Below, in pieces: positions 15,088 through 60,797 of a DNA stretch of 64,000 nt. The notes under the pieces are model-generated. The model did no database searches and had not been told where the DNA came from. It saw only the letters and a list, made by a program, of their open reading frames with translations. Each line of letters begins with the position of its first letter. Position 1 is the first letter of the stretch. The stretch is from Owenia fusiformis (Eukaryota; Annelida; Polychaeta; Sabellida; Oweniidae), in NCBI GenBank assembly GCA_903813345.2, contig CAIIXF020000006.1, positions 38,283,348-38,347,347 of the forward strand, in the 5' to 3' direction. Both the position numbers and the translations under genes were made by a program.

Positions 15088-15203
15088 CCTATATTGTTTG
15101 TCGTGTTGTAATTGCTGTAAAACACAAGTACATTTAACGTGTACCAGGAAATCCCAAAGTAACCTAGCCCTCACACTACCTTAAATCGGCTAGTTTGTTA
15201 CAC

Positions 15204-15221: not shown

Positions 15222-15257
15222 ATTGTGACTGCAGACTTTGTGATACAACATAACAAA

Positions 15258-18208: not shown

Positions 18209-18220
18209 GGTTGGGAGGAG
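18209..18220 (+). promoter_or_regulatory. Polypurine tract
   Basis: GGTTGGGAGGAG lies directly before the 3' LTR, the expected place and composition for plus-strand priming. Confidence 0.7.
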
Positions 18221-21200: not shown

Positions 21201-22183
21201 ATGACTGACCATTGACCATTGACTATTGACTTCACTTAGCCTGATGAAGTAACCATAGATGATTATAAGCCATTGATGTGAAAACCTGGATGAATTTATT
21301 GGCTTATTAGAGGAATTTTTGGAACTAAAAAATTGCAAAACTTAGCTGATTTTTTGGGATCTACAAAACTTAGAAGTTTTCTGCTATCTGAAGAACATAG
21401 TCGATCTGCTACATGGGATGACTGACCATTGACCATTGATTATTGACTTCTCTTAGCCTGATGAAGTAGCCATTGATGATTATAAGCCATTGATGTGACA
21501 ACCTGGATGAATTTATTGGCTTATTAGAGGAATTTTTGGAACTACAAAACTTAGTCGTTTTTGCTAACTGCAAAACTTAGCTGATATTTTGGATCTACAA
21601 AACTTAGAAGTTTTCTGCTATCTGAAGAACTTAGTCGATTTGCTGCGTGGGAATCTACAGGACTGGACAGCACTTCAAGAGGGTGAAGCTATCCCCAGCA
21701 TAGAGCTTACAGAAGTGGTGTCCAGCCTTCATAGACCTAATTCATGGAATTGGATGTTCCTTTCTTCGCCTTGGTCCTAGTCAGTGTTTTATTCATAGTG
21801 ACCTGTTTGATCGCGATTATATGCATCCGTGTGTGTATGAGGACTGAAAGGGACTCTACTAACCAGGAACCTCAAGTAACCCTTGCACCTAGGCCAGCAT
21901 TACAGTCATCATTGGGATTCAGTTTGGCCACTGTGAACTTTGAATAGAATCCTACTGTGAACTATTATTGTACCAGAGAGTGGGTGCATATAATTAACAA
22001 CAACAAGTTTATTTGGACATTTTGAATTTATTTGTGTATAATTAATGTTATAATATATGTGAAATAAACCTATATTGTTTGTCGTGTTGTAATTGCTGTA
22101 AAACACAAGTACATTTAACGTGTACCAGGAAATCCCAAAGTAACCTAGCCCTCACACTACCTTAAATCGGCTAGTTTGTTACA
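18221..22183 (+). repeat. 3' LTR (3963 bp)
   Basis: Second copy of the LTR with the same ends, TATA box (18800), polyadenylation signal (22063) and membrane-peptide frame (21744-21947). Its tandem array (about 18895-21620) has fewer units than the 5' LTR. Confidence 0.93.
21744..21947 (+). CDS. Small membrane-peptide frame in the 3' LTR
   Basis: Identical to the frame at 14763-14966: 67 codons with one hydrophobic segment and no known family. Confidence 0.3.
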   Translation: MELDVPFFALVLVSVLFIVTCLIAIICIRVCMRTERDSTNQEPQVTLAPRPALQSSLGFSLATVNFE

Positions 22184-26571: not shown

Positions 26572-26692
26572 ATGGAAGAGCCTACTGAAGAAAATGTCTT
26601 CAGCTTCCAAGATGAGAAGACGTCACCTGACCCTATCCACGACTATCCAAAGACGTTACTCGAATCAAGGGTGCCACTGGTGATTGACAATG
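26572..26692 (+). CDS. ACTR5: ACTR5 exon 1
   Basis: Starts at the ATG of [12 protein letters not shown]; ends in VIDN plus the first base of the Gly codon, followed by GTAGGTAA. In-frame joining to exon 2 restores the actin phosphate-loop DNG motif. Confidence 0.92.
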
Positions 26693-29600
26693 GTAGGTAA
26701 TAAAACATGGATTTTCCTGAGACAATAGGTTTTGGATGATGTTTTTAAGCCCTACATAGCCATAACGTGTTCATTGAATGAAGGGTGTATTTTATTTTGC
26801 ATTTTAAAACCAATCCTTTGATGGATTTATTACAAGTAGTGATAGTTTATTCATGGAATTACCTCTCTAATCAGCAAATTACAGATAATGCAGGCCAGTA
26901 GCCAAAGTGGGGGGGGGGGTCATGCAGTTTGTACCATTCTGAGCACTTTTCAAGTGATTTTGGGTCAAAATGGTGAAATATGCACCCCACCTCAACCTAT
27001 TTTTTAAAATGTCACCCCCTTGACAAAAGCTGGCTATGGGCCTGTAATGAATGAATTACATTTTAATCAACGATTTATTCAATTTCATCTACTGATTAAA
27101 AGATAATTTAAAAAATAATCCCATATGTAAATTCCAGGTGCATATCAGTGCAGGGCAGGCTGGGCATCTGATGAAGATCCAAGACTGTTTTTCAAAAATG
27201 TTCTTGTGAAACAGCGAGGGAAAAAGGTAATTTAAAGCAAAATATGAAAGAAAAAGCATTTTTCCTGTCAATTATGAAAAAAACATAAATTGTCAAACTA
27301 GTGGGTTGAATCATTGATGTATGCTTAAAAAGCCTCATTTTCAAAAATTAGTTTGAATACAGCAACAATATGAATAAATACAGCTATGATATGAATACAG
27401 CTATAATATTGAATACAGCTAAAATGTGAACACAGCTCAACTACGTAATCACAGTTGCACTGCTGCGGAACTTTTTTCCCCCTAAATCCAATATAGGTGT
27501 CTCTGCTTTAACAAGAAAAAATCAAGTTGGATCACTTTTCAAAACATTTAGATGTTTCCATTTAATTTAATTCCAGGAGTCAGAAACTCAGGTGGGCAAT
27601 GACATCACTAATATTGAGGTTGTTCGTTGGCAGCTAAAGAGTCAGTTTGACAGAAATGTCATCACTCAGTATGACGTACAGGTTAGTTACATTAAATGTT
27701 GTGTTGCTTTCGACAATGAACTTGTATATGTAGTGCTTAGCAAAGCCTATGGCCGGTGTCTAGTTAAAACACTAAACTGGAGTTTTACAACGTAAATTAT
27801 GCCTATAATCATGGGGTCCCAACTATGACCGTTAATTTGAATTTTAGACCTACTAGGTGTTTGAAAATCAGAGATTGTAAGTCTCATACTGCACCGTTTT
27901 TCTTCAAACTTTTTCCATCAAAAGCTTAACAAAAATGCCTTTCTGTTTACATTATACTGTTATACAGAGTCCCTCCTTTTAGCGGGGTTTAGATCCCAAG
28001 CTGTGAGAAACACTTCACAAGATTCACACATGTTTTCTTAGGAGCAGATCTTTGACTACCTGTTCAGTCACATGGGCATAGATAGCGATGGTTCGGTGCA
28101 GCATCCTATATGTATGACAGAACCTGCGTGTAACCCTAACTACTGCAGATTACGTAAGTTGCATCTCTGGGTTTACATTAAAATCAAGGTTTGACTAGAA
28201 GAGGAAAATTGAGTACCAAAGAAAGATGGAACAGCCTGGAACAGCCAATTTAACTGTTGAAAATATTTGAATCGCTTCAGTAAAAATAATTTGTTTTTAC
28301 TGTTGAAAATGTTTGAATCGCTCCAGTAAAAATAATTTGTTTTTACTGTTTGAATCGCTGAAACCAGTAAAAGTAATTTGTTTTTGCCTATATCTCAATT
28401 TTGAGAAAGTGCTAGATAACCCATTTTGTAACAGTGACATATATGATATGATATTTTATCCTATGCCAAGTAGAGTTTTAGGGAGATAATTTGGTAAGAT
28501 ATATCACGTATCCTGATTTTGAGGTTTCCATATCCAGAACCTCCATATCTCCCGCCGTATCTCCCGCTTCGGTGCATATCTTCCCGCTTCCGGTGCATAT
28601 CTCCCCGCTTCCGGTAATGCAATAAAATGACTTTGCATATGAATGATTTGTTTATTTTTACACCTTGAACTATTGAAATGGTTGTATGCCCCTGGAAACC
28701 CTACTTGGTATAGGATAAAGCAGTTATGTACGGTCGGTTTGGATATTGGGTTCATCCCTCGTGAGATATGCACATCTACCTTCGGTCCCTACGATCCCTC
28801 AGGTAGATATGCATATCTCCCTCTGGATAAACCCCATATCCAAAACCTCCCAGTACATAATCCTTATGTGTTCTATTTCAGAGATGTCAGAGCTGCTGTT
28901 TGAGTGCTATGGAGATGTTTGAGTAGAAATATGGCATAAGTAAATAATGTTGTGTTCGATTTCAGAGATGTCAGAGCTGCTGTTTGAGTGCTATAAAGAT
29001 GTTTGAGTAGAAATATGACATAAGTAAATAATGTTGTGTTCGATTTCAGAGATGTCAGAGCTGCTGTTTGAGTGCTATGGAGATGTTTGAGTAGAAATAT
29101 GGCATAAGGAAATAATGTTTTGTTCGATTTCAGAGATGTCAGAGCTGCTGTTTGAGTGCTATAGAGATGTTTGAGTAGAAATATGGCATAAGTAAATAAT
29201 GTTATGTTCGATTTCAGAGATGTCAGAGCTACTGTTTGAGTGCTATGGAGATGTTTGAGTAGAAATATGGCATAAGTAAATAATGTTGTGTTCGATTTCA
29301 GAGATGTCAGAGCTGCTGTTTGAGTGCTATGGAGATGTTTGAGTAGAAATATGACATAAGTAAATAATGTTGTGTTCGATTTCAGAGATGTCAGAGCTGC
29401 TGTTTGAGTGCTATGGAGATGTTTGAGTAGAAATATGACATAAGTAAATAATGTTGTGTTCGATTTCAGAGATGTCAGAGCTGCTGTTTGAGTGCTATGG
29501 AGATGTTTGAGTAGAAATATAGCATGAGTAAATAATGTTGTGTTCAATTTCAGAGATGTCAGAGCTGCTGTTTGAGTGCTATGGAGATGTTTGAGTAGAA

Positions 29601-32600
29601 ATATAGCATTAGTAAATAATGTTGTGTTCAATTTCAGAGATGTCAGAGCTGCTGTTTGAGTGCTTGTTTGAGTAGAAATATGGCATAAGTAAATAATGTT
29701 GTGTTCGATTTCAGAGATGTCAGAGATGCTGTTTGAGTGCTTGTTTGAGTAGAAATATGGCATAAGTAAATAATGTTGTGTTCAATTTCAGAGATGTCAG
29801 AGCTGCTGTTTGAGTGCTATGGAGATGTTTGAGTAGAAATATGGCATAAGTAAATAATGTTGTGTTCGATTTCAGAGATGTCAGAGCTGCTGTTCGAGTG
29901 CTATGGAGATGTTTGAGTAGAAATATAGCATAAGTAAATAATGTTGTGTTCCATTTCAGAGGTCTCAGAGCTGTTGTTTGAGTGCTATGGAGATGTTTGA
30001 GTAGAAATATGGCATAAGTAAATAATGTTGTGTTCGATTTCAGAGATGTCAGAGCTGCTGTTTGAGTGCTATGGAGATCTTTGAGTAGAAATATGGCATA
30101 AGGAAATAATGTTGTGTTCGATTTCAGAGATGTCAGAGCTACTGTTTGAGTGCTATGGAGATGTTTGAGTAGAAATATAGCATAAGGAAATAATGTTTTG
30201 TTCGATTTCAGAGATGTCAGAGCTGCTGTTTGAGTGCTATAGAGATGTTTGAGTAGAAATATGGCATAAGGAAATAATGTTTTGTTCGATTTCAGAGATG
30301 TCAGAGCTGCTGTTTGAGTGCTATAGAGATGTTTGAGTAGAAATATGGCATAAGTAAATAATGTTATGTTCGATTTCAGAGATGTCAGAGCTACTGTTTG
30401 AGTGCTATGGAGATGTTTGAGTAGAAATATGGCATAAGTAAATAATGTTGTGTTCGATTTCAGAGATGTCAGAGCTGTTGTTTGAGTGCTATGGAGATGT
30501 TTGAGTAGAAATATAGCATTAGTAAATAATGTTGTGTTCGATTTCAGAGATGTCAGAGCTACTGTTTGAGTGCTTGTTTGAGTAGAAATATGGCAAAAGT
30601 AAATAATGTTGTGTTCAATTTCAGAGATGTCAGAGCTGCTGTTTGAGTGCTATGGAGATGTTTGAGTAGAAATATGGCATAAGTAAATAATGTTGTGTTC
30701 GATTTCAGAGATGTCAGAGCTACTGTTTGAGTGCTATGGAGATGTTTGAGTAGAAATATAGCATTAGTAAATAATGTTGTGTTCGATTTCAGAGATGTCA
30801 GAGCTACTGTTTGAGTGCTATGGAGATGTTTGAGTAGAAATATAGCATTAGTAAATAATGTTGTGTTCGATTTCAGAGATGTCAGAGCTACTGTTTGAGT
30901 GCTATGGAGATGTTTGAGTAGAAATATAGCATTAGTAAATAATGTTGTGTTCGATTTCAGAGATCTCAGAGCTGTTGTTTGAGTGCTATGGAGATGTTTG
31001 AGTAGAAATATAGCATTAGTAAATAATGTTGTGTTCGATTTCAGAGATGTCAGAGCTACTGTTTGAGTGCTTGTTTGAGTAGAAATATGGCAAAAGTAAA
31101 TAATGTTGTGTTCAATTTCAGAGATGTCAGAGCTGCTGTTTGAGTGCTATGGAGATGTTTGAGTAGAAATATGGCATAAGTAAATAATGTTGTGTTCAAT
31201 TTCAGAGATGTCAGAGCTGTTGTGTGAGTGCTATGGAGATGTTTGAGTAGAAATATGGCATAAGTAAATAATGTTGTGTTCGATTTCAGAGATGTCAGAG
31301 CTGCTGTTTGAGTGCTATGGAGATGTTTGAGTAGAAATATGGCATAAGTAAATAATGTTGTGTTCAATTTCAGAGATGTCAGAGCTGTTGTTTGAGTGCT
31401 ATGGAGATCTTTGAGTAGAAATATAGCATAAGTAAATAATGTTGTGTTCGATTTCAGAGATGTCAGAGCTACTGTTCGAGTGCTATGGAGTCCCAGAGAT
31501 CTGTTATGGTGTCGATTCGCTATTCTCCCTCTATAATAATCTGCCACAGCCAGGTTTGTATATCATATTATAACATTATAGAAATGTATGCTTTTTAAAT
31601 TCTTTTATTTTATTTTATTTTTTATTTCATGCTCCCCAAATTTCCTGTAAGAGTAAAACATGTCTAATCTGAAGATTACATTCAAAATTTTGGGATTGTC
31701 AGGTCTTCTCATTTCAATGGATTTTCAACATGGTAATCTATGTTAGATTAAGAAGTGGGACCAAAAACGTGTCCACCTTGAGATGTTAAGATGAGTGGGG
31801 AAATACAGATTTTACAAATACGTTCTTATACTTTGGGTAAAGCTGTTGCCATCGTGATATCCTGTGGTTACTACACAACACCAATTCTTATACTTTAGGT
31901 AAAGCTGATGCCATGGTGATCTCCTGTGGTTACTACACAACACACATTCTCCCTGTTCTTGATGGACGCTTAGATGGCAAACACTGCCGTAGAATCAACA
32001 TAGGGGGTGCAAACTGTGACTTATTCATGCATCGTTTACTGCAGTTGAAGTATCCAGGCCATTACGCTGCAATATCGGTCGGCAGGGCTGAGGTAAGAAT
32101 TTATTTCTAGAATATGCTGAAGACTCATCCACCTGTAATATGCACCAATAATATATGCACCAATAATCTTACTGGGTGTCCAAAAATGTTTTCACTTTAA
32201 GAAAATGTCATATTCTAAAAAGATGATATTGTTAATTTGAACATTGAATATTGGATACCCCAAAAAATGTGACGTTAGTTGGTGTGGCTTGGGTGAGAAG
32301 TTATTTCCGGAATATGCACCAATAATCTTACTAGGTGTCCAAAAATGTTTTGACCTTACAAAAAATGTCTTATTCTAAAAACTGATTAAAAGATGATATT
32401 GTCAATTTGATCATTGAATATTGGATACCCAAAAAAATGTGACGTTAGTTGGCGTGGCTTGGGTAAGAAGTTATTTCTAGAATATGCTGAAGACTCATCC
32501 ACCTGTGATATGCACCAATAATATATGCACCAATAATCTTACTGGGTGTCCAAAAATGTTTTCACTTTAAGAAAATGTCATATTCTAAAAAGATGATATT

Positions 32601-35600
32601 GTTAATTTGAACATTGAATATTGGATACCAACAAAAAATATGACGTTAGGCTTGGGTAAGAAATGTTTCTAGAATGTGCTGATGACGTATCCACCTGTGA
32701 TTATTCACCCATAATGTACAACTTACTACAGTGTCCAAAAATGTTTTGACGTTAGTAGAAATTATCTTATCCTACACTTAATGTACTAATAATAAACATT
32801 AAAAAATAAATTTGATATTAATTGGCAAAATGAATAACCGGAGGATATCGTAACGATATACTCCGGGTGGAGGATATTGTGACGATATACTCCGGAAAAC
32901 CCAATATGCGGAGGATATTGTGACGATATACTCCGCTTGTTGATTTCCCGCCAAATTGACTCTATTTGGCATGAAATTCATTTTGCAATGATATTATACA
33001 TTTAGAACACTCCTTGTAAGTGTAGTATAATAAGAACATCCTATGATTTTTTCAGAATATCATTTTAATCTCTCTCGTGCAGATATCAATATCACCTCGT
33101 AGATAAAAATGATATTCCTCAAAATCATAGGATATCCTGTAAATATGCAAAAAAACTGATAAAAAGATATGATATCTCATTTAGTATTGACAATATCAAT
33201 GTTATATTATATATATTACATTTTAGGGATGTTATTTTGTATGAAAAGTTATGTTTGATTACTTTTTGTTCAAGTTTGAAAATTAAGAATTGACCATGTG
33301 ATTTTTGTTTTCTTTCAGGAGCTTGTTCACAAACACAGTTACATGAGTAAAAACTACTTAGAGGAACTGAAACTTTGGGGAACAGACAATTACTACAATA
33401 AAAATGTGCACAAAATTCAGCTCCCTTATACAAAGGTAAGAAGACCCTTAAAAATCATACATTTAATAAGGTTCATTATTATAAAGCTTGGTCTCGCCCT
33501 TGATGTGTCAGGATACTGTAAAACGCATTGGATTTTCAGTAGCAATTTTTGTGTGCAGATTTTGTCCATTTGTTTCTTTTTGTACACTCATGGTTTTTCC
33601 TCAATTTGTGGCTGGAATACAATTTGAATTTGTGATTTTCACACTCACGCTGATATTACAAGTTTCAGCATGTGATACAGGAAATATTCCACGAATGGTA
33701 ACACTTATCCATATAAGCTAAAATGTGTGATGACAATTTTATCAGATGTCTAGTTTATAGTAAGCATTTTGAAACCATCTTTCTGTTTCACTGTTATTCA
33801 ATTTTACCAAATATGATTTGAAGAACAAAATAGCAGTTTTTTCAACATCTGTTTATTTCACATAAAGCATTTGACAATTACTAATAGTTTTGCATGAAGC
33901 CAAAGTCATGAACCTTCAATTATCTGTTCTCTTACCATTGTTTAGGAGGTGCTAATTAGAGTTTGGCTTGAGGGATATCTAGGGGCTTAAATGTAATACC
34001 AGATTAACCAGAGGTACTGGAAATCCATTTTTCCGTGCTGCATCAGAAAAAATGCAGAATTTTTAGTTTTTTAAAAATTTGCAAAATATTGAATTTCTAT
34101 TGATTTTCGCAGAATTCAATATGAGTCATGAAATATGTAGGGACTAGATACTCGTTTTCTATTGGTCAAAACATGGAAAGTCCAAATGCATGTACACATT
34201 AGAAAAACATGGCTGTTTTATTTTGATTTTCACACTATTTTGACAAAAAATGTTGTGAAAATGCCTTTTTTTAGCTCGGAATTCTTGTACCCCTGATTGT
34301 CACTGGAAAAATAAATATGAAAAACATCTTGATTATATAGAAAGCACACAAAGCAACATTGTTCAAAAAAACATTAAATGAGCTAAGAAATTAAAATGCT
34401 CAAAAATAGAATCAAATAAAGATTGTTGATTTTTAGCTCATATTTTTAGCTCACAATTTTAGCTCATATTTTTAGCTCGCATGTTTTGTAGTAGATTCTT
34501 GATTAAAATCATTGTCTTTGTAAACATTATGTACAAATCAGATACTACATTCTCTGAAAATTGAGAATATATCCTAAAGACCATTCTCATAAGTGCCCAT
34601 ATATAAAAGATGTCAAAAATCCAGAGGAATTTTATATACAGCAATTATTCTTGCCAAAAATGCTTTTTGCAACAAATAAACAGTATATTTTTTACAATAA
34701 TGATATGTATTGTTATTTGACGAACCATAAGAATTCTTTTAGAATATTCATATCCAGCTTATACCATCATGACCATCATTATAATGCCTTATTTGCTACA
34801 TAAAAACAAAATTTCTTGGAAATTCGATTTTTTTTCTTGGTCATAAGCATATTTTTTTGTACTTTGAGAAGCGGGGTGAATGTTTATTATTAGGGAGTGG
34901 GTGCTAATAACAGAAAATAGGGTAATTCAAAAATTGATCACAAGCTTGGTTATAATATGTACACATAAAAGCATAACGGATATATAAAACACTCCGGAAG
35001 TCAGTTCAGAAAATATTTCTTTGTCCAATTAGTTGTTGAAATCTTCCTGGTTGATGGTATTTATGACCCAATAAATTTTGGGAATATTTCACTGTCAGTT
35101 CTTTGATATTTTTTGAACAAATTAGTTGTTGAAATACTTCCTGGTTGATTCAGATGGTATTTATGATCAAATAAATTTTGGGAATATTTCACGGTCAGTT
35201 CATTTGATATTTTTTGAACAAATTAGTTGTTGAAGTAATTCCTGGTCATCTTCACCTATAGATTAGTTCAGATAATATTTTGGAGTACTTTCTTGTTAGT
35301 TTAGATAATATTCTATTACCAAATAATTTGTTAGAAGTACATCCTGGTTGTTCTCACCTTTATGAGTCAGTGAATATTTCATAAGTTGTTGACAAAATGT
35401 TCTTCCTGGATGCCTTCACCTAAAATTCAGTTGGAATATTTGTTTATCCAATAAGTTCTTGAAGAACTTCCTGGTCGCCTTCATTATACTGGAGTAGATA
35501 TTGTGTATCCGCCTCTCCCTGGTATCTGGGGTTACCTAGAGCATCTTGCATCTTTCTCCAAAACAGCTGTTTTCTGTCCTCATCCTCGCTCCATTCCAGG

Positions 35601-38600
35601 TACACTCGGGTCTCAAGTAAGGAGCGCAGGGTGGGTGTGATCAGCTCTGGGGGTAGAACATCCAATGGTTCCTTTAGAATCAATATCAAACAATCTCTCC
35701 CTCTGGTCGCCAGTTCACCTCTCGCAAGGTTCATTTCGAATGTACACCAACCACTACGAAGAAAGTTCTGGCTGATGGTCAGAATTATTTTATTGCTTTT
35801 GCTGATACTCTCAATGATGATATCAGCGATATAGGCACCAGGCATGAAGTTGCGGTCATCCAGGCATATGTTATAGTTGTATTTATCAGCTAAAGTAGCA
35901 TAGATGTTCTCCTGTGCCCAATATTTGTCCAGAGAGCTATAACTCAAAAACCCATCAAAGTCAAAAGCAAAATCAAGATGTTGATTACGTCTGAGTAATG
36001 CCCTCAGATGGAGGGCCAGATATTGTATTTTGTACCTGCGTCTGTATACATATACCGCTGTAATTATGCTAATTACAGTAAGTCCGAAAGAAACAATTGA
36101 CGGAATTATGGCAGCTTTCCAACAGTCCCATTTCATATCAGGCAACATAATGTCTTTGAGTGCTACCTCTGAACCATTGATGTAAATGCATGCAACTTCT
36201 GGCCAGTTATGCATGATGCTATTGCTTGTTTGCATCCAGTCGATGAACTTGAATGAATCGCAATTACAAATCATCGGGTTTTGTCTGAAGTCTATTGTCA
36301 AATTCATGCTTGATGTTATTTTAAGTTCATCAATTTCCATTTTTGTAGTTTCATCAATTGTTTGTATGTGGTTATTTGACAAATTTAGCAGTTTCAGTGA
36401 TTTCAGTCCTGTCAGTGTAAACATGATCCTTTTTATTTTGTTGCCACTCAAATTCAGGACTTCAAGTCCTGTTGTATCTACAAATGCATCTGAGTCAATA
36501 TCTGTAATATCATTGTGGGACAAGTCAATGTGTTGCAGCTGGGAGCAGTTTCTGAATAGGAGGTGGACAGAGGAGTTAGAGATAAGTTTTGCTTTGTTGT
36601 TGGCCAAATCTAGAACTTTTAAACTTTCAAAATATCCAGTCTCGCATGTAAAAAACTCAGGTACAATAATGCAGTTATTTTCAGGAAATATCAACCTTTC
36701 CAAATTAACCAGGCCTTTTATGGACTTACCAATGTATGTTAGCATAAAACTAGCAGAGGCTTCAATGATCTTAATCCGATTATTACTTTGTATCTTTATT
36801 CCATATGGTAAATGATAAGGGTGATTATTCACATTGGTCTCTGTGAAGTACAGTTCTTCAAGTGCTATAGGAACTGCCCATTCATTTTCACTTAATTCTT
36901 CTGATATAGCCACATTAGCCTTGTTTAAATCAAATACCCTTCCAGGAATGTTCTGTTCTAATTTTAATACCCTCAGATATCTCATCAAATAAAGTTCAAT
37001 AAGGATTACTCTTCTTGGTATTGAGTGTTTAATACTATTTTTTGACAAATCCAGTATTTCTAATTTTGGCATATATTTTGAGATTCCCGGAGACTCCATG
37101 GCGTAAATTCTATTATCAAGCAAACTGAATCTTTTCAAATTGCAATGTTCAAGGAATTTCAAATGATTGGCCTTCAATAAAAATGGCATATCTGTTATAT
37201 GTTGATATGTAATACTTTCTATCGTAGAGTTTTGTAGTCCTTGAAATGCATGAAACAAAGCTATTCTTGAGCCTGGATACCCATTTGATTCATCCCCAGA
37301 GCCTAACACATGAATTTTATGAATATTCTTTAGTGGTTTGTAAACAAGTGGGTGAAACAGGTGTGGTTTATATGGATTATTGCCTATCCTTAGATCCTGT
37401 AGATTATGAAGGCCATCAAAGATATGTTGTCCAAAAGCAACTATTTTGTTGTCACCTATATCCAACACTTTCAGATTTCCATAAATCTGTCCAAGCTGGC
37501 CATCGGGCAAATGTTTAATACTATTGTGTGATATCATGAGTGTTGTTATATTCCATGGCAGATTCAAAGGGAGTGACTGAAGGCCTCTAGATGTACAGTC
37601 AGCTGTAAGACCATCACAGTTGCATCTCATACAGTCACTTTTGTTGTTAAATTCAGATTTAATTCCATCAAATCCAGCATGTTTAGAAAATAAATCTGAG
37701 GATCCATAGACAGATAGATACTTTATTATCAGAAGGAAAACTGGCAACTTTTTCAAAAACATTGTTCCGATATTCCAGATTTCCAAAGATCTGTGTTGTG
37801 GTTTTCTTGCCTTTTTTAACACAAAAGAACAGTGAGCTCTGTGTCAGTCTAATATGACTTACGGTATTTATATGCAACACGAACAGGAAGTTTTTCTTCA
37901 TGTTTTTTTGGTACTTTGTGTTCTATATTCATTCAATTCGTCAAATTTATTAACAATGCCCAATGTGTATTTGAATGTCTCAAAGGCATTTTTACAAAAG
38001 GTACAATACATCAATTCAACAGTTCAAAAAAGAATTCAACTTTTCTTCATTCACTAACTCCCTGATTTTAAATTTGAAATGAAAGCAATACTTTGTATGG
38101 CTTCATAATTTTTAGAAATGAAAAAATATTTGTTAAATCCTTTGGTGATTCGTGTACCTGAACAAAAAGTCTTAAGTGTGTTTAGGTACACATTTCCATT
38201 TTGGTACATATATAGTATCATACTATATGTTTAAATTTACCTCCATGGCAGACAGGTACCAAAGAGGGGTTGGGTTGGCAATTTGAAATTTTCAAAAAAA
38301 TTTTGAAAATTGTTATTTCTTGTTAGGTGGGTAATTATCCTTAATGTTCTGGTCTTCCATTTCATTCAATGAATTATATTTTCTACTGAAGAAATGAAAT
38401 AAAATCGACTTAAATTAAGACTTCAACTTCTGAAACACCAAGACCAACATAATCATGACTCTGAGTTGAAGCCACCAATTGAAAGTAAATAGATTCCAAA
38501 ATGAAGAATTACCTAGAAAATTAGGCATCAAAATATGCTTTTGGGAGAATAAGAAATTAAGAAAAAACTACAGACTTGCCATCCTCCGATCACAGGGCTT

Positions 38601-41600
38601 CAAAATCCAGAATATATTCTTTCTTTTTACCCCCTGCGATAAGCAGTTAGCATTTCCCTGATTAAGAACTCGCAATCTGATTGGTTGTCTCAAGACTGCG
38701 GCAGAAATCATGTATAAGTTATTGTGCATAGTTAGATCACGTGATTCAGTTTAATCGGGCGCTTCCAAATTGGTTATAGCAGGGGGAAGAAGGAGGTACA
38801 AATTCTAGATACATGCAGGGATGCGGACTTGCCAACCTCTTGTTGTTTTACATGAATCCAGTAAAATGTTTGTTTTTCTGTAAAAAATATCAAACTCCTG
38901 TACCATGAAACCATACCGAATCTCCCATAATTTAATTTTTTTAAACTGAAATCTCCCTTATTCTTGGTAAAACTCCCCTAAAATCTCTTGTTTTTGCTGT
39001 CGAAATCTACCGTAGATAAGATTTTTTTAAAAAACGGTAGTTTGATAAAATATGTTTTGATTGTTTGGATTTGCCATCTGTGGAGTTGCTGTTTTCATAA
39101 AGTTGCTATTTTTTAATAATGATACTGAATTTTACCTCCAGCGTGATGTTATATTTCCAGAAAGTTGAGGTAGTTGTTGACCCAGAGCTCCAGAAAGCTA
39201 GAAGGGAAGTTCATATAAAACGTCTAAAAGAACTGGCAGCAAAACGCAGAGAAGCACAGGTAAACAATTTTTATTGTTGACTTTGTATAAAGTGAATCTA
39301 TAGAATGCCATATTTTGTGTATTCTTATCATTTTATAGACCAAAAAAATCATCACTGAAAATTGGTTGCTTCCAAATTGGTTTTAGCAGGAGGGGAAGAA
39401 GGAGGTACGGATTCTGGACACCTGCTTAGGAGGATATGTACTTCCGTGTTTAAAAAACTTGAAATGTGAACACCTGCCAATCTGAACACTTTTGGTCCAT
39501 CCTAGTAGTGAAAGGTTTTATTCTGTATTGCCCTTGGTTAAGTTAGCTTTAAAATCATATCAAAATATATTTTGTGGATTTGCCTCCCTTGGCATGGTAT
39601 TTAACAATAGCACATTTATTTCTTGTATTTCTAGCTAATAAATGATGAGAGTAAACTCCGACTTTTGTTAAATATAAAACACATGGCTGAAGAAGGGAAA
39701 CACAAAGAACAAGTCAAGGTAAGAAATATATCTTTTTTCTTTACTTGCGATAAGTCCCCAGAATTTGTAACGAAAGTTCATATTTTAGTTAAGCTGTCTG
39801 TTTATTTTTTATCACACAATGGTTCCATTTTGTTTTTGATTGAAATTTAAAATTGGCCACCTTAATAATATAAGTAACAACCTTAGTTTAATCATTAATC
39901 GTCGAATTCTGGTATTATATTATTTTGTTGGAGTTTGATCTGACTCTGAATGGAATTGTAAACTGAATTGTATTTACATGAAGAAAAATTTAAAATGAAA
40001 TTGTTTTTATATCATTACTCAATTGAATTTTAAGTAAACACATCATTGAAGGCACTTATGTTAGCACATTGCTGCCATCATTTAGTAATTGCCTCTCTCT
40101 TTCGATTTTACTTTTGCTTATTTTATAGCAAATGATGGAAAACTTGGATCTTGAAGATATGAAAGAGCTCCAGGTCTACATTGATAAGTTCACAGGATCA
40201 ATACAACGTGCCAAGGTTGCCATGGCGAGGCAAGACAACGAAGAGGTAAGCTCCATATTCAAAACGACATGTACAGAGGTTGCTATGACGAGGCTTCAAA
40301 CAAAGAAATTAATCTATAACCAATACAGCATGCCCTGAAGGTTTCCATGACTTGTTTTTTATATTTCTAACAGTGCACTCTCTCTTTTGAATAAACTAAT
40401 TGATAGGTCAGAAATATGTGCTTTAAAATGTTATATTATTGAGGGAATTATGACACAATGATGAAAAAATATATTTTCCTCAATTCATTTGATATTATGA
40501 TTAAACAAATCCAAAACTGTTGTACCGAGATGCGTAATATCCCAGAATTCATAGACTGAAGTTGAACCTTATAATCTTTATGTCAATATGAAGCTTTGGG
40601 TTCTATGCTTTACATGGAGATACTCAATCTATGAATTCTTTGGTGTATCCATTCCTCCTCTGTTGTTACAAAAAGAAATATATGCATATTATTGAAATAA
40701 GGGGATTTCTGTAAACTTACTGAACAACTTTATAGAAAAAAGGAAGTGCCGTTGATATATTTGAGCTTCCCGATGAGAAACTGACGTCTGCTCAAAGAGA
40801 AGCTAAACGCAAGGAGCAAGAAATGGAAGAGAGACGTCGTCAAGACTTCAATGGTTGGTTGAAAGAGATCCAGACAGAGAGACAGGTGGGTATTAGAAAG
40901 CTTGGTGGGTATTAGAGAGCTTGGTGGGTATTAGAGATCTTGGTGGGTATTAGAGAGCTTGGTAGGTATTAGAGAGCTTGGTGGGTATTAGAGAGTTTGA
41001 TGGGTATTAGAGAGCTTGGGGGTATTAGAGAGCTTGGTGGGTATTAGAGAGCTTGGTGGATATTAGAGAGCTTGGTAGGTATTAGAGAGCTTGTTGGCTT
41101 TTAGAGAGCTTGGTAGGTATTCGAGAGCTTTGGGGTATGAGAGAGCTTGGTGGGTTTAGAGAGCTTGGTGGATATTAGAGAGCTTGGTGGGTATTAGAGA
41201 GCTTGGTGGGTATTAGAGAGCTTGTTGGCTTTTAGAGAGCTTGGTAGGTATTCGAGAGCTTGGTGGGTATTAGAGAGCTTGGTGGATATTAGAGAGCTTG
41301 GTAGGTATTCGAGAGCTTGGTGGGTATTAGAGAGCTTGGTGGGTATTAGAGAGCTTGGTGGGTATTAGAGAGCTTGGTGGGTATTCGAGAGCTTGGTGGG
41401 TATTAGAGAGCTTGGTGGGTATTAGAGAGCTTGGTGGATATTAGAGAGCTTGGTGGGTATTAGAGAGCTTGGTGGATATTAGAGAGCTTGGTAGGTATTC
41501 GAGAGCTTGGTGGGTATTAGAGAGCTTGGTGGGTATTAGAGAGCTTGGTGGGTATTAGAGAGTTTGGTGGGTATTCGAGAGCTTGGTGGGTATTAGAGAG

Positions 41601-44600
41601 CTTGGTGGGTATTAGAGAGCTTGGTGGGTATTAGAGAGCTTGGTGGGTATTAGAGAGCTTGTTGGCTTTTAGAGAGCTTGGTAGGTATTCGAGAGCTTTG
41701 GGGTATGAGAGAGCTTGATGGGTATTAGAGAGCTTGGTTTTTTTAAATAAAAAATAATTGCACGTGTATTTAGTATGTATAACATAGCATCATTAATTGA
41801 CGCAATTTATAAGTACATCTGAGAATTTTATCCTTATTGAATCTTATTTTTCAGTGTAATTCAAAATTCTAAAATTTTGACGAACACGGATGCTTGTTTT
41901 CCCCATAACTGATGTAACCTTATGAATAAATTGATCAATTGATGTTATTATGTCACCACTTATGTCACCACCAAAAGTGGTGACATATTGTTATGGTCTC
42001 CGTTTTTTTGCGACGGCGGTTGGTGGTTGGAGGTTGGAGGTTGGCGTCCGGCGTCCGGCGTCTGTAACAATTTCTTACAACTTCCTATAACTTAACAAAT
42101 ACTGTTTAGACTGACTTCAATTTTTTTCTAAATCATCTACATGTTCTCAGAAGTTCAAATCTGACTTTAGATTTGACATTTGACCTTCAATGACCTTCTC
42201 AAGGTCAAAAAGGTCTTTTTTCAACTTGCTTCACATTGACTAAATTTTTTTTCAAAATCATCTACATCTTCTCAGAATTCAAATCTGACTTTAGGTTTGA
42301 CATTTGACCTTCAAATCTGACTTTAGATTTGACATTTGACCTTCAATGACCTTTTCAAGGTCAAAAAAGGTCAAAAAGGTCTGTTTCAACTTGCTTCAAA
42401 TTGACTTAAATTTTTTTTCAAAATCATCTACGTGTACTCAGAAATTCAAATCTGACTTAAGATTTGACTTATGATTTGACATTTGACCTTCAATGACCTT
42501 CTCAATGTCAAAAAAGGTCAAAAAGGTATTTTTTCATCTTGCTTCAAATTGACTAAATTTTTTTTTCAAAATCATCTACATGTTCTCAGAAATTCAAATA
42601 TGACTTTAGATTTGACTTTAGATTTGACATTTGACCTTCAATGACCTTCTCAAGGTCAAAAAAGGTCAAAAAGGTCTGTTTTCAACTTGCTTCAAATTGA
42701 CCAATTTTTTTTTTCAAAATCATCTACATGTTCTCAGAAATTCAAATCTGACTTAAGATTTGACTCAAGATTTGACATTTGACCTTCTCAAGGTCAAAAA
42801 AGGTCAAAAAGGTCTGTTTTCAACTTGCTTCAAATTGACTAAAAAATTTTTTCAAAATCATCTACGTGTTCTCAGAAATTCAAATCTGACTTTAGATTTG
42901 ACTTAAGATTTGACATTTGACCTTCAATGACCTTCTCAAAGTCAAAAAAGGTCAAAAAGGTCTTTTTTCAACTTGCTTCAAATTGACTAATTTTTTTTTT
43001 CAAAATCATCTACATGTTCTCAGAAATTCAAATCTGACTTGAGATTTGACATTTGACCTTCAATGACCTTCTCAATGTCAAAAAAGGTCAAAAAGGTATT
43101 TTTCATCTTGCTTCAAATTGACTAAAAATTTTTTTCAAAATCATCTACATGTTCTCAGAAATTCAAATATGACTTTAGATTTGACTTTAGATTTGACATT
43201 TGACCTTCAATGACCTTCTCAAGGTCAAAAAAGGTCAAAAAGGTCTTTTTTCAACTTGCTTCAAATTGACTAATTTTTTTTTTCAAAATCATCTACATGT
43301 TCTCAGAAATTCAAATCTGACTTTAGATTTGACATTTGACCTTTAATGACCTTCTCAAGGTCAAAAAAGGTCAAAAAGGTCTGTTTTCAACTTGCTTCAA
43401 ATTGACCAAATTTTTTTTTCAAAATCATCTACATCTTTTCAGAAGTTCAAATTTGACTTTACAAGTTTTCAGAAGTTCAAATCTGACTTTAGATTTGACA
43501 TTTGACCTTCAATGACCTTCTCAAGGTCAAAAAGGTCTTTTTTCAACTTGCTTCAAATTGACTAATTTTTTTTTTCAAAATCATCTACATGTTCTCAGAA
43601 GTTCAAATCTGACTTTAGATTTGACATTTGACCTTCAATGACCTTTTCAAGGTCAAAAAGGTCTTTTTTCAACTTGCTTCAAATTGACCAAATTGTTTTA
43701 GGTGGTGACATTTTGTCATATTAATGCCTTGTCCTCCTTGCAGGGTTTGGTTGAGAAGAGAACCATCAGGAAGCAAAGAAGATCTGACATGGCCAAGAGA
43801 AGAACATTTGCATCACAACAAAGGATGAAGATAATCTCACAGCTAGCTGCAGGTACTGCTACAATAATTGAGTTATGATACAATAATTGAGTTATGATAC
43901 AATAATTGAGTTATGATACAATAACTGAGTTATGATAAGATAAATAAGCTGAATTATGATACAATAACTGTCTTCTGACTGACTTCTACAATAACTGAGT
44001 TTATGATGCAAAATAAAATGAGATTTTTTGTTATTTTCTGATCATTTTTTCAATTTATACCGTAATATTACAACAAGACCTCTCCAATAGTTTTTTCTGG
44101 ATTATACAGCACCCCCGTCTCCCCTCTACAGCAAAAAAGCTCCTTTATGTTGAATGGTGTGTCTTATCTCATTTGAAAGATGATTTAATTCCGGAGTTAT
44201 CTTGGAAATTTTTATATTGAGAAAGCTACATAGTTTCAAAGTTTGCTTCTTCAGTAGCTTTGTTTGCTACTTTTTTATTTGTTAAGGGTCAAATACGTTT
44301 ATACAATCCACACAAATTCATATGTTTATACAATCCACACAAATTCATATGTTTATACAATCCACACAAATTCATATGTTTATACAATCCACACAAATTC
44401 ATATGTTTACACAATCCACACAAATTCATATGTTTACACAATCCATACAAATTCATATGTTAACACAATCCATACAAATTCATATGTTTACACAATCCAT
44501 ACAGATTCATATGTTTACACAATCCATACAAATTCATATTTTTACACAATCCATACAAATTCATATGTTTACATAATCCATACAAATTCATATTTTTACA

Positions 44601-47600
44601 CAATCCATACAAATTCATATGTTTACATAATCCATACAAATCCATATGTTTACACAATCAATACAAATTCATATTTTTACACAATCCATACAAATTCATA
44701 TGAGTACACAATTACATGGAAGAGAGGGTTCTGTTATTTCATTTATGTCTGTTGTTTTACCCATGTTCATTTAACCCATGTTTATCATTTCACCCATGCC
44801 TATTATTTCACCCTTGGTTTTTATACCTTGCCTATTATTTCACCTGAGTTTTATCATATAACCCATTTTTTATTATTTCACCAATGCTCATATTACGTAT
44901 TTCATCCATGTCTTACATATTTCACACATGTCTATTAGGTATATCACCCATGTCTATTACATATATCACCCATGTCTATTACGTATATCACCCATGTTTA
45001 TTACGTATATCACCCATGTTTATTATTTCACCCATTTTTGTTTTTCACCCATGTCTATTATTTCACCCATTTTTGTTTTTCACCCATGTCTATTATTTCA
45101 CCCATGTTTATTATTTCACCTGTATTACAGGAAGTAAGAAGAAGAGGAAGGATGATACGTTTGGAATGGATGACAGTGATTGGAATGTTTACAAGCAGAT
45201 TAACAAGGATGCAGGGGACAGTGATTCTGAGGCTGAGCAGGAGAGACTTGATGAGTTGGAGACACTGCTACGAGAGTATGACCCAAATTTTGAAAGGTAC
45301 AAAAAGGATGAAAAACTTTGATTAGTTTAAAATAGCTTTTATAATTACATTGTAATAAAGTTGCCTTGAAATTTTCTTGACTATGAAATGACTAGAAGTT
45401 GAAGATGGAAATGGATTTTCAATCTTGTAAAAGAGGGGTCATTCGGATGCACCTAGATACTGCTGAATATCTCTTTTAAAAAGCCCTCTTAATGTGAACA
45501 CTTTTTCTTGATCATGCTAGTTTGAGTCAATACCTCATTTAGAAACCGGGAAATGTGAACACTTGCAAAACCAAACACTTTTGACTGGTCCCTCTGGTGT
45601 TCTTATTAGAATCTGATTTGATATATCTGTGTTTGCAGAGAAAAGGAAGGAGTGTTTGATATTGCTGAACACTACAAACTACATGTTGGGGTGGAGAGAA
45701 TCAGGTAAGATTGTGCTATAGAGAATTACATCAACCAGGCCCGTAGCCAGGGGGGGTTCGCAGGGTTGGGTGAACCCCCCCCCCCCTGGCCAAAAATTCT
45801 TTCTAAATCATGCAGTTTTTCACCATTTTGAGCACTTCTCAAGTGATTTTAGCCATATTTGGGTCAAAATTGTCAAATGTGAAACCCCCCTGGAAAACTG
45901 AACCCCCCTTCGCAAATCCTGGCTACTAGCCTGCATCAACGTTTAGGTATCTGCCCCCTAACCAACGTACGGGTTAATAAGAGACAGTTAATCAAATAGG
46001 ATTTATGGAAATCTATCAATTCAACAACTGAGCTTGAGATTTAAGAATTTTAGTACATTTTATGGATGCGCTTACAGTTTTCATTGTACTTAAAAAATGC
46101 TACATTGTCGTCTTGTGCAGCTGGGCAAGTGGTTGGGCACAACATGAATCAATTGTCATCCAAATTCCAGGAAAACTTCTTATAGGTTCAACTTGTATTT
46201 TTTACCAATGGCCTAGCGTCATATACACATAAAACACCATGGCATACTCTCAAAATTTATAGAAAAGTTGATTTTTTAGATTGAATTGCCCCACCCTTTA
46301 AATTGGTCAATATTTATATACTTTACATTTTGTTAGTCCATATTAGTCGGAATTTCGTATTTTAAAACGACCCAAAATGCTTCAACTGCAATCTCATTTT
46401 CATACTTTTTTTTCTCAAAGATCGTTCGTTTGGCTCACTGGTGCTGTTCACTCACAAAATACTGACGCTACGCCACTGTTTACTGATGCAAGAGCAGATT
46501 AGTGGCAAGATCTGATTAGGTTTTAAGCATATGCTTGGTAAATGACATGGCTGCCATAAATAATTGAAAATGTTTATATATTCCATAAGGTTCCCGACTT
46601 GTTATTTCAACCCTGCATGGTGGGTATTGAACAGGCTTGTTTGGCGGAGACCCTGGATTTCATACTGAAGAAATACCCAGATGATATTCATAAATGATTG
46701 AAAATGTTTATATATTCCATAGGGTTCCTGAGTTGTTATTTCAACCCTGCATGGTGGGTATTGAACAAGCTGGTTTGGCAGAGACTCTGGAGTTCATACT
46801 CAAGAAATACCCAGATGATATTCATATAGATTGAAAATGTTTATATATTCCATAGGGTTCCTGAGTTGTTATTCCAACCCTGCATGGTGGGTATTGAACA
46901 AGCTGGTTTGGCAGAGACCCTGGAGTTCATACTCAAGAAATACCCAGATGATATTCATAAATGATTGAAAATGTTTATATTCCATAGGGTTCTTGAGTTG
47001 TTATTCCAACCCTGCATGGTGGGTATTGAACAAGCTGGTTTGGCAGAGACCCTGGAGTTCATACTCAAGAAATACCCAGATGATATTCATAAATGATTGA
47101 AAATGTTTATTTATTCCATAGGGTTCCTGAGTTGTTATTCCAACCCTGCATGGTGGGTATTGAACAAGCTGGTTTGGCAGAGACTCTGGAATTCATACTC
47201 AAGAAATACCCAGATGATATTCATAAGTGATTGAAAACGTTTATATATTCCATAGGGTTCCTGAGTTGTTATTCCAACCCTGCATGGTGGGTATTGAACA
47301 AGCTGGTTTGGCAGAGACTCTGGAGTTTATACTCAAGAAATACCCTGATGATATTCAACAGAGATTGGTCAATGTGAGTACTGAGATTTTCTAAGAGTAG
47401 ACAGGCACATATTGAAGAGTTTCTGATAAATTGGCATCAATGGGATATCAAATATGTACTGCTTAGAAGTTTTCATATGCACAGGTTTCACTGCAGAAAA
47501 CATATAGAGGATATCCTATGATTTATGAGTGATATGATTTTTATTCACGAATGGATATGATATCTGCAGATATCAATATCCATGAGTGGATTAAAATCAT

Positions 47601-50600
47601 ATCATGAGTAAATCATACCTAGTTCTTCTTATTTCATCATCAGAATTGTCGGAAATTAAGTGATTTAATTCGAATTTTCCAAACGATCCTGCGATGTTGA
47701 CACTTAGCCTTGGTTTGAGTCTGAAGTAGCAAAAATCCATAATTCGTAGCATATGGCATTGTATGTCCATATGCTATGGTTAAGTGAAAAATTGTCAAAA
47801 ATATCATATTTTACCACTGATTACAAAAATACCGTTTTTATTTTGACATGTTATCCTATGAATATCATGCTAATTATGGAATAAATATTGATATTGATAT
47901 CTGTTAAAGAATTATATTTTCATGGTCTTGGAGCTGCTTGATAGATAAAAACCACTTCCCTGTTCATCTTGAATATTGTATATTTGGATAAAAAGTTTGA
48001 TATTTATATCTGCCTGTCTTGTTTTATTGTACTATTCTGCTGTTTCATTTAACATGGGTAGATGTGCTCTTTATATTACTTGCATTCTTTGAACGCAGGG
48101 CTCAAGACATCATATATGATTTTGAAATACTTCATACAGAATGAATTTAAAACCGTTTAATACAAAACAACTAATTTCCCTTCTATTTCAGCATGTTTTC
48201 CTGACTGGGGGTAACAGCATGTATGCAAACTTTGCAGAGAGACTGGAACGTGATTTACTTGAAATGAGACCCTTTAAATCCACCTTTAATGTTAAGACAG
48301 CAAGTAAGTTATCAATATGTTGAAGTTTACTTGAAATGAGGCCCTTTAAATCAACCTTTAATGTAAATACAGCAAGTAAGTTATCAATATGTTGTGATTT
48401 ACTTGAAATGAGGCCCTTTAAATTCACCTTTAATGTAAAGACAGCAAGTAAGTTATCAATATGTTGTGATTTACTTGAAATGAGACCCTTTAAATCCACC
48501 TTTAATGTAAAGACAGCAAGTAAGTTATCAATATGTTGTGATTTACTTGAAATGAGGCCCTTTAAATTCACCTTTAATGTTAAGACAGCAAGTAAGTTAT
48601 CAATATGTTGAAGTTTACTTGAAATGAGACCCTTTAAATCAACCTTTAATGTAAAGACAGCAAGTAAGTTATCAATATGTTGTGATTTACTTGAAATGAG
48701 ACCCTTTAAATCCACCTTTAATGTAAAGACAGCAAGAAAGTTATCAACATGTTGTGATTTACTTGAAATTAGGCCCTTTAAATTCATCTTTAATGTAAAG
48801 ATGGCAAGTAAGTTATCAATATGTTGTGATTTACTTGAAATGAGACCCTTTAAATCCACCTTTAATGTAAAGACAGCAAGTAAGTTATCAATATGTTGTG
48901 ATTTACTTGAAATGAGGCCCTTTAAATTCACCTTTAATGTTAAGACAGCAAGTAAGTTATCAATATGTTGAAGTTTACTTGAAATGAGGCCCTTTAAATC
49001 AACCTTTAATGTAAATACAGCAAGTAAGTTATCAATATGTTGTGATTTACTTGAAATGAGGCCCTTTAAATTCACCTTTAATGTAAAGACAGCAAGTAAG
49101 TTATCAATATGTTGTGATTTACTTGAAATGAGACCCTTTAAATCCACCTTTAATGTAAAGACAGCAAGTAAGTTATCAATATGTTGTGATTTACTTGAAA
49201 TGAGGCCCTTTAAATTCACCTTTAATGTTAAGACAGCAAGTAAGTTATCAATATGTTGAAGTTTACTTGAAATGAGACCCTTTAAATCAACCTTTAATGT
49301 AAAGACAGCAAGTAAGTTATCAATATGTTGTGATTTACTTGAAATGAGACCCTTTAAATCCACCTTTAATGTAAAGGCAGCAAGAAAGTTATCAACATGT
49401 TGAGGTTTACTTGAAATGAGACCCTTTAAATTCACCTTTATGTAAAGACATCAAGTAAGTCATCAATATGTTGAGCTCTTCTTGAAATGAAGCCCTTTAA
49501 ATCAACCTTTAGTGTAAAGACAGCATGTAAGTTATCAATATGTTGAAGTTTACTTGAAATGAGGCCCTTAAAATCAACCTTTAGTGTAAAGGTAGCAAGT
49601 AAGCTTACAATTTTTCACAATATACCTAGAATAGACCAAGTTATGTTACAATATCCGTACACAACACATTTTATAAGGCATTTATACTAGATATTACTAA
49701 GGTGGGACTTGACAAAATACATTTGGACATATTTTTCATGTAACAGCTAATTAGTTCTGTTAACTTAATATTCTCCCTCCTTAGCCTTCCTTAATTAATG
49801 AACAGAAGTTTTGATATTTTGATATTTTCTTTTATAAAGCTAATCACAAATTCACTGCATGATCTAACAATAGCAATCATTAAAGCATCTCTTGGTAACA
49901 AATAATTACAGAATATAGCACAACAGAATGTATCATTACAGAATATAGCACAACAGAATATATCATTACAGAATATAGCACAACAGAATGTATCATTACA
50001 GAATATAGCACAACAGACTATATCATTATAGAATATATCATTACAGAATATATCATTACAGAATATAGCACAACAGACTATATCATTACAGAATATAGCA
50101 CAACAGAATGTATCATTACTGAATATAGCACAACAGAATGTATCATTACAGAATATAGCACAACAGACTATATCATTATAGAATATATCATTACAGAATA
50201 TAGCACAACAGACTATATCATTACAGAATATAGCACAACAGAATGTATCATTACTGAATATAGCACAACAGAATGTATCATTACAGAATATAGCACAACA
50301 GAATGTATCATTACAGAATATAGCACAACAGACTATATCATTATAGAATATATCATTATAGAATATAGCACAACAGAATGTATCATTACAGAATATAGCA
50401 CAACAGAATATATCATTACAGAATATAGCACAACAGAATATATCATTACTGAATATAGCACAACAGAATATATCATTACAGAATATAGCATAACAGAATA
50501 TATCATTACTGAATATAGCACAACGGAATATATCATTACTGAATATAACACAACAGACTACATCATTATAGAATATAGCACAACAGAATATATCATTACA

Positions 50601-53788: not shown

Positions 53789-54619
53789 AGTCCCCGTCTA
53801 AAGTTTGAAAATATTTTTTTATCATTCATTTACTATTTGTCAGGATTTAAAAAGTGATTTTAAAGATTTTGAACAAAAAATATTTTTTGAAAAAAAGTTG
53901 TGAGCATTTCATTTCTCAAATATTCAAATTTCCCGCCATTTTTCAAAAAAAGTTGAAATTTCTTTATCATCAAATATTTCTTAATGCATTTCAAAAAAGA
54001 TTATCTTTTTAACACCAATGCAAAGATTGAACAAAGGACACACTATTTCAATAATAAAATGCCCTATTTAATTGGCCACTTCAATGTTTTAGCATATCAA
54101 AAATATTTTGAAACATTAGTGATGTCACTAAGGTAACCAAAACTTTTTGAAAAAAATTGAAATTTTTTTTTCGATGTCAATCTTTTCTAAATATGCTAGA
54201 CTTTCATAAAAAACCAATGTTGATTGTCTAACCAGGTTAAAAGGAAGAATAAATTATGTTTTAGATATCATTGTACCATTGGTTTCTATGAGAACTAAAA
54301 TTTTGAAATGCATTTTTCTCAGAACCATTTTCATGCACTGATAAGTTCATTTCTCGCTTGTTTATCAACCAATTTTCTTAATTTTTTTGGCAAAAAACAT
54401 GGGAGGATGAATGCTATGCATTGGTATGAATTGTGGCTAATTAGAAGATATGAGTGACCTCTAAAAGTTGGTTTTAAATAAATTCACAAATTTTGGAACA
54501 AAAAGTCTATCAAAAACCACTTTTTGAAATTTAAAATAAAAGTTTCACATATCACACTTTGATAACATTGGGTAAGACTACAATATAAGCCAAAGTGGTT
54601 TAAACTTTACATGGGGCCT
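53789..54619. mobile_element. TTAA-target transposon (piggyBac/Kolobok-like MITE), 831 bp
   Basis: TTAA at 53785-53788 and 54620-54623 flanks inverted ends AGTCCCCGTCTAAAGTTTG and the inverse of AGGCCCCATGTAAAGTTTA. The right copy has a single TTAA (about 63300) at the same codon. No transposase frame. TTAA is the target of piggyBac and Kolobok groups; which one is unresolved. Confidence 0.9.
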
Positions 54620-57087: not shown

Positions 57088-57096
57088 CTCACTAAC

Positions 57097-58654: not shown

Positions 58655-58663
58655 CTCACTAAC

Positions 58664-60790: not shown

Positions 60791-60797
60791 GTTTATT

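Follow-up and report, generated by a model that had tools for sequence, protein, structure and literature searches.

The ACTR5/ARP5 gene (26572..51225, + strand) in the 64,000-nucleotide stretch of DNA analysed here (the window) contains tandem arrays made from its own exon–intron boundaries, which are probably mirage-type minisatellites that originated from chance duplication of exon edges, grew by multi-unit exchange and have been tolerated through exon definition. The gene consists of 17 exons encoding 674 aa from ATG to TAA in an open frame with GT-AG introns, and the best solved-structure match of its product is human ARP5 (6hts_H, E 7e-164). Tandem arrays occupy 40% of the gene length, compared with 17% elsewhere in the window and 4% there once retroelement flanks are removed. 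All extra copies lie outside the coding exons, and the 674-aa frame over 17 exons is kept. A search for multi-exon genes that could serve as controls, by six-frame Pfam scanning of 1-9902 and of 56300-63999, returned 0 families, and a single scan of a 136-aa piece against viral contigs found no relatives.

Splice-site-spanning arrays were detected in two ways, by TRF and by blastn of all 32 ACTR5 junctions, and four of these junctions are located inside arrays whose units combine exon sequence with the splice site. The largest, at the exon 5 acceptor (28867..31490, +; 84-bp unit; exon 5 at 31458-31553), includes 31 decoys and the real site, with AG in 32/32 acceptor copies, the real one included. 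The exon 6 acceptor (31823..31950, +; exon 6 at 31899-32092) has a 62-bp duplication of two copies, and the one extra copy has lost its AG. At the exon 15 acceptor (46555..47357, +; 134-bp unit; exon 15 at 47256-47373) five decoys, four of them with AG, accompany the real site, while in the exon 16 donor array (48250..49611, +; 72-bp unit) the real donor after 48303 is followed by 18 decoys, of which 16 have GT. The introns around exons 5, 6, 15 and 16 are 345-3304 bp long. The mapped arrays agree with the limits of the original prediction (28864-49610), and its claim of at least four arrays holding exon sequence plus a splice site, so that one gene shows the process repeatedly, was confirmed by both methods. 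The extra copies lie on the intron side as it proposed, the real acceptor being the 3'-most copy and the real donor the 5'-most, presumably because the other order would alter the coding sequence.

Two more junctions, the donors of exons 6 and 11, may belong to this group; an encounter with arrays had also been claimed for them. The candidate duplication at the exon 6 donor (32086..32670, +) comprises the real donor after 32092 and intron-start copies near 32292, 32462 and 32655, whose exon-side likeness of 9, 10 and 6 of 15 compares with the 10-11 of 15 that two unrelated ACTR5 15-mers reach; TRF called no array among these copies, and they failed the blastn junction test. The 19-bp array at the exon 11 donor (40885..41738, +) takes in the final exon 11 base as its first and has a donor-like GT in 36/41 units examined, with an exon-side likeness of 7/10, a level shared by 101/23,767 other ACTR5 10-mers. 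Arrays said to run into the exon 12 donor and the exon 13 acceptor stop 7 and 10 bases short, respectively, and are intron-only: a 19-bp array (43860..43970, +) begins 8 bp into intron 12, and 18-66-bp repeats (44769..45120, +) end 10 bp before exon 13. None of these four junctions passed the blastn junction test. Exon sequence is likewise absent from the repeats of 126-148 bp in intron 11 (42278..43699, +), whose rows reach 283 bp, and from the 30-bp array in intron 16 (49905..50967, +); a 27-bp array lies within intron 12 (44293..44712, +).

The internal structure of the arrays points to multi-unit exchange. In the exon 16 array an identical 448-bp block recurs at a distance of 9 units; in the exon 5 array the identical blocks measure 236 and 232 bp and recur at distances of about 14 and 6 units. 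At exons 15 and 16 divergence is greatest in the copies at the intron-side end of the array; at exon 5 the copy at the far end has an undiverged exon part, so that a homogenised centre with a diverged end is not clear there, and the exon 6 acceptor offers two copies for judging this. Such long identical blocks could also arise if the assembly had inflated one or two true duplications, and PMC3087553 describes an aberrant assembly of one amphioxus mirage in its draft version. Nevertheless, the copies are several percent apart and have many distinct variants, with TRF match levels of 90-95% in the exon 5, 6, 15 and 16 arrays, unlike one duplicated read set, which makes an assembly artefact highly improbable. 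Array copy numbers may still be off from their true values.

The decoys largely retain working splice signals. AG or GT is intact in 51 of the 55 extra copies of the four arrays, and 49 equal or exceed the real site's score in a small weight matrix built from ACTR5's own 16 introns with the tested site left out. The real-site score is reached by 31/31 decoys at exon 5, 3/5 at exon 15 and 15/18 at exon 16, so decoy strength does not explain site choice in these arrays. It is reached by 0/1 at the exon 6 acceptor, 0/3 at the exon 6 donor and 0/41 at the exon 11 donor, where site strength alone could decide. Selection against decoy sites was rejected, the majority being intact. Decoys as complete alternative exons were rejected as well, since no exon is copied whole; donor-like sites scoring at least 3 in the exon 5 array are TAA|GTAAAT (18) and AAA|GTAAAT (2).

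Splicing to a decoy would lead to an early stop in 99/99 decoys tested, those with broken AG or GT included. Within each array the stops coincide at a single codon or at two adjacent ones: aa 154-155 for the 31 exon 5 decoys, aa 194 for the single exon 6 acceptor decoy, aa 244 for the three at the exon 6 donor, aa 437 for the 41 at exon 11, aa 577-578 for the five at exon 15 and aa 624 for the 18 at exon 16. These stops, together with intact sites in 31/31, 4/5 and 16/18 decoys (0/1 at the exon 6 acceptor), might suggest that decoys are used and that the resulting poison isoforms, maintained by selection, lower ACTR5 output. The variants also lean towards synonymous changes, with 19/47 when compared with the real exon (P 0.011 for an expectation of 11.5, a count that takes in changes found in the real exon alone) and 15/39 among decoys alone (9.5 expected, P 0.037; exon 6 left out), the latter divided into 7/11 at exon 15, 3/9 at exon 5 and 5/19 at exon 16. 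However, the same lean is expected if a functional exon is re-copied into decoys, and as proof of decoy function the excess was rejected as too weak. At a divergence of about 3.5% per site, neutral change would break about 2 AGs in the 31 decoys of exon 5, close to the 0 observed, and the stops need not reflect selection, a stop within about one unit being likely by chance. Maintained poison isoforms are an improbable explanation.

In the mirage-type origin that we favour, a short stretch over an exon edge would be duplicated by chance, leaving the surplus copies on the intron side. Multi-unit unequal exchange or conversion would then have enlarged the array and rearranged its units. The original prediction offered, as one of two possibilities, that copies are tolerated because the outermost sites win; this is better put as a probable advantage of the nearest pair across the exon, in that with introns of 345-3304 bp the spliceosome would join the 5' and 3' sites closest across the exon, here the real pair. 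Exon-centric proximity in splice-site pairing is supported by PMC9225289, according to which the upstream preference among 3' sites in long introns is reduced rather than reversed; therefore, 31 strong decoy acceptors should give some mis-splicing. Mis-spliced messages, bearing early stops, would be degraded. Since the real pair would be the one joined and mis-spliced messages would be degraded, the arrays could lengthen introns at little cost, and a function is not required to account for them. Correct ACTR5 splicing is here assumed from the intact coding frame. The mis-splicing to be expected from strong decoy acceptors, the shortness of intron 5 (345 bp), the undiverged far-end copy of the exon 5 array and the weak exon-edge surplus are points against this origin.

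The suggestion that slippage favours exon edges was not supported: copies are found at 4/32 junctions and at 294/600 random intron positions, per position a lower level at junctions, and array coverage within introns climbs with distance from the junction from 0.18 to 0.66, although the values farthest out are pushed up by the very growth of the arrays. Slippage through hairpin-forming units was rejected, as the stretches at exons 5, 6, 11, 15 and 16 fold no better than shuffles (DNA folding z from -1.55 at exon 16, where 16/200 shuffles were as good, to +1.05; an intron-12 stretch served as comparison). Counted per array, with at least 8 exon bases required, 4/17 arrays include an exon edge. 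The expected number is 0.89 for the gene at its present length (P 0.008), 1.44 once the arrays are collapsed (P 0.043) and 1.71 if the TLR ORF of intron 7 is taken out as well (P 0.075). The count becomes 5 against 1.05-2.03 (P 0.002-0.037) when exon 11 is included with 1 exon base required, and 4/7 (P 0.003-0.027) for periods of at least 40 bp, but only 3/12 (P 0.026-0.14) for arrays of at least three copies. These tests are post hoc and concern one gene, chosen after the pattern was seen, and their array list omits the exon 6 donor copies, which would raise the count. There may thus be a weak surplus of arrays at exon edges. The surplus and the array richness of ACTR5 relative to the rest of the window could indicate that arrays arise preferentially at exon edges, with slippage, repair or transcription-linked damage acting locally at these borders, but the per-position deficit at junctions, the unremarkable folding and the choice of gene render this unlikely.

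As mirage-type arrays, the 55 exon-edge copies in one gene, 51 with intact AG or GT and 49 scoring no lower than the real site, make ACTR5 an unusually rich example. They could be used as a natural experiment on exon definition and on how introns begin to lengthen through tandem duplication. A bolder reading, to which we give little credence, is that outside cephalochordates a housekeeping gene's exon edges serve as master copies from which intronic arrays are continually supplied, so that exon ends and decoys share variants, and that the gene is a natural 31-to-1 competition test of the spliceosome's ability to distinguish genuine splice sites from copies.

Tandem duplication as a route to intron gain, mentioned as background in the original prediction, is in print (PMC3087553, PMC4974935). 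Like the potato RdRp intron gain (PMC4974935; Rogers model), in which the duplication is described as covering the intron 3' end and the start of the next exon, the ACTR5 duplications copy a full 3' splice site; unlike in that model, the gene structure calls for no new intron between the copies, and the arrays occupy introns which the frame requires in any case. Minisatellite expansion at exon–intron boundaries also characterises human internal tandem repeats in duplicated genes (PMC2812944), which transcripts are reported to tie to altered splicing and novel introns, whereas the predicted ACTR5 coding frame is unchanged. This human case was the nearest among the open-licence literature matches listed, which included no mirages under that name outside amphioxus. 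The ACTR5 arrays match the amphioxus mirages, and structures of this kind are already known from lancelet genes, among them PGBD5, Adh and troponin C (PMC3902484). As in the published mirage descriptions, units cross a splice junction and take in exon sequence, be it at the acceptor or the donor end, the extra copies lie outside the coding exon, and decoy splice signals are largely kept. A cluster end that escapes homogenisation, a trait of those mirages, is seen here at exons 15 and 16 and is not clear at exon 5; regular splicing of amphioxus mirages was reportedly undisturbed in RT-PCR (PMC3087553). Unit sizes are 62-134 bp in ACTR5 and 10-160 bp in the amphioxus mirages described. The mean GC of this window, 34.8% compared with 41.3% given for B. 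belcheri (PMC12373286), does not point to Branchiostoma, and if the host is not a lancelet, the phenomenon would be broader than the mirage literature suggests. Unlike the amphioxus mirages, for which maxima of 6 repeats in globin and 7 in PGBD5 are given, ACTR5 has up to 31 extra copies, and four (possibly six) of its junctions are involved in one gene.

The complete ACTR5/ARP5 gene lies at 26572-51225 on the plus strand, with 17 exons forming one 674-aa frame and GT-AG at every intron, and its identity is supported by the solved structure that the protein matches best, that of human Actin-related protein 5 (6hts_H, E 7e-164). A single-exon Toll-like receptor (TLR) ORF with LRR_8 (LRRs) and TIR is nested antisense in intron 7 (35444-37843, minus strand). 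Each of the 32 junctions, with 40 bp on each side, was searched by blastn against the window and counted as copied if a same-strand copy no more than 6 kb away extended at least 8 bp on both sides. Four junctions passed: the acceptors of exon 5 (31 extra copies), exon 6 (one) and exon 15 (five), and the donor of exon 16 (17 extra copies by blastn, 18 by pattern). The original prediction that ACTR5 contains arrays built from its own exon sequence plus splice site is therefore confirmed as an observation, while its interpretation is partly supported. All extra copies are intronic and the real site, i.e., the one used in the gene model, is the exon-side copy, as had been claimed; this order is presumably forced, because any other would change the protein.

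Of the further splice-site arrays that had been proposed, none passed the junction test, and those at two donors are possible cases at most. The exon 11 donor is the start of a 19-bp array but failed the junction test (blastn, at most 6 kb, at least 8 bp each side), and its 7/10 exon likeness is also found in 101 of 23,767 other ACTR5 10-mers. The start of the intron at the exon 6 donor is copied three more times, but exon-side likeness is partial (9, 10 and 6 of 15) and matched by two unrelated ACTR5 15-mers, and this donor failed the same test. Arrays beside the exon 12 donor and the exon 13 acceptor contain no exon sequence.

Decoys, the extra array copies of a real site, were scored with a small weight matrix from ACTR5's own introns, omitting the site tested. 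AG was kept in 31/31 decoys of exon 5, 0/1 of the exon 6 acceptor and 4/5 of exon 15, and GT in 16/18 of exon 16 and 36 of the 41 exon 11 units examined (the TRF count being 45). Decoys equalled or exceeded the real site in 31/31 cases at exon 5, 3/5 at exon 15 and 15/18 at exon 16, so that strength cannot explain site choice there. None did so at the exon 6 acceptor (0/1) or the exon 11 donor (0/41), and the three exon 6 donor copies scored below the real donor; at these three sites strength alone could decide. An early stop followed each of the 99 decoys tried in place of the real site, broken sites included (exon 5, 31; exon 6 acceptor, 1; exon 15, 5; exon 16, 18; exon 11, 41; exon 6 donor, 3). 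Since a chance stop within about one unit is likely, these stops indicate that mis-splicing would be inexpensive to clear and are no evidence of selection for stops.

According to PMC9225289, with large flanking introns the spliceosome favours the site pair closest across the exon, the stronger 5′ site being dominant in 86% of events and 3′ sites showing merely a reduced upstream preference. The real pair is the closest across the exon in every ACTR5 array, the introns concerned measuring 345-3304 bp, and the real sites may thus be chosen as the pair nearest each other despite the decoys. Because upstream preference is only lessened at 3′ sites in that account, the 31 exon 5 decoys would be expected to see some use in splicing.

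Slippage favouring exon edges had also been suggested, and judged per position the edges are not preferred: copies occur at 4/32 junctions, at 294/600 intron positions drawn at random and at 27/300 exon positions lying 20 bp or more from an edge. Coverage by copies climbs in introns with distance from the junction (0.18 to 0.66, the far classes being inflated by array growth itself) and drops in exons away from the edge (0.12 to 0.02). In a per-array null, each unit was placed randomly at intron or single-junction positions and scored for at least 8 exon bases. Four edge units were observed. The null expectation was 0.89 for the unaltered gene (P 0.008), rising to 1.44 when arrays were collapsed (P 0.043) and to 1.71 when the TLR ORF was taken out as well (P 0.075). 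Including exon 11 gave 5 against 1.05-2.03 expected (P 0.002-0.037); arrays of at least three copies gave 3/12 (P 0.026-0.14) and periods of at least 40 bp gave 4/7 (P 0.003-0.027). These P values overstate the case because ACTR5 was chosen for showing the pattern, and the count is understated because the exon 6 donor copies are absent from the array list. Judged per array, edges are perhaps weakly preferred.

TRF arrays, 17 distinct ones after overlapping rows were merged by hand, cover 9866 of the gene's 24,654 bp (40%), against 17% of the window outside ACTR5, or 4% once retroelement flanks are removed. Nine arrays of at least 300 bp lie in the 22.6 kb of ACTR5 intron and one in the 28.7 kb of flank outside the retroelement (P 0.007), in a post hoc, hand-counted comparison for this one gene that excludes five retroelement-flank arrays.

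Mean pairwise difference among decoys was 0.043 in the exon part and 0.040 in the intron part at exon 5 (first copy omitted), 0.046 and 0.047 at exon 15, and 0.095 and 0.066 at exon 16, where the exon part is the more variable. The exon 16 array contains an identical 448-bp multi-unit block nine units apart, and the exon 5 array identical blocks of 236 and 232 bp, which point to several units probably having been exchanged together; the six-copy exon 15 array showed no identical block of at least 100 bp beyond adjacent units. The real exon 16 copy is closer to copies 4, 9 and 13 (0.986) than to its neighbour, copy 2 (0.903). Divergence is greatest in the intron-side end copies of the exon 15 and 16 arrays; the end copy of the exon 5 array agrees with the others in its exon part. 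Of 47 variants scored relative to the real exon 19 were synonymous, where 11.5 were expected (P 0.011), as were 15 of 39 among decoys (9.5 expected, P 0.037). This lean comes mostly from exon 15 and is missing in exon 16 (5/19); it is a hint that decoys may have been re-copied from the functional exon. Unusual folding was not found in five array stretches.

Elsewhere in the window, 11000-21781 looks like an LTR-type retroelement: an 894-aa frame carrying a gag-type aspartyl protease lies between direct repeats that are all but identical (11000/18750, 100% over 769 bp; 13410/20391, 99.9% over 1391 bp) and are themselves packed with 234-bp tandem units. For a long single-exon ORF (54607-56244, minus strand, 545 aa stop to stop), a search with 533 aa against Pfam and solved structures gave no match at E 0.001. 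A putative DNA transposon, recognised by eye, occupies 57107-58640: inverted ends, which include CCTCCTACCCACGTAC at 57113 and the reverse complement of that motif at 58607, enclose about 1.5 kb. Tandem repeats of 135-154 bp fill 61153-61852, and by eye a related stretch lies near 59640-59720.

Tandem repeats across exon-intron boundaries were described in amphioxus globin genes (PMC3087553) as "mirages", a name from earlier Adh work. They occur at either exon end, AG/GT is kept in many repeats though not all, cluster boundaries escape homogenisation, and Adh data together with globin RT-PCR suggest that splicing is undisturbed. PMC3902484 adds mirages in lancelet PGBD5, where two assemblies show 2 or 7 × 60 bp and 3 or 6 × 108 bp, and refers to Adh and troponin C as further cases. 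Among the literature matches listed, none under that name was outside amphioxus. Mean GC is 34.8% in the window, versus 41.3% for B. belcheri in PMC12373286, which speaks weakly against a Branchiostoma origin. The ACTR5 arrays share the anatomical features of amphioxus mirages, and of the three many-copy arrays those of exons 15 and 16 show the homogenisation feature, which is not clear at exon 5; the arrays are a rich fresh case of an already known structure.
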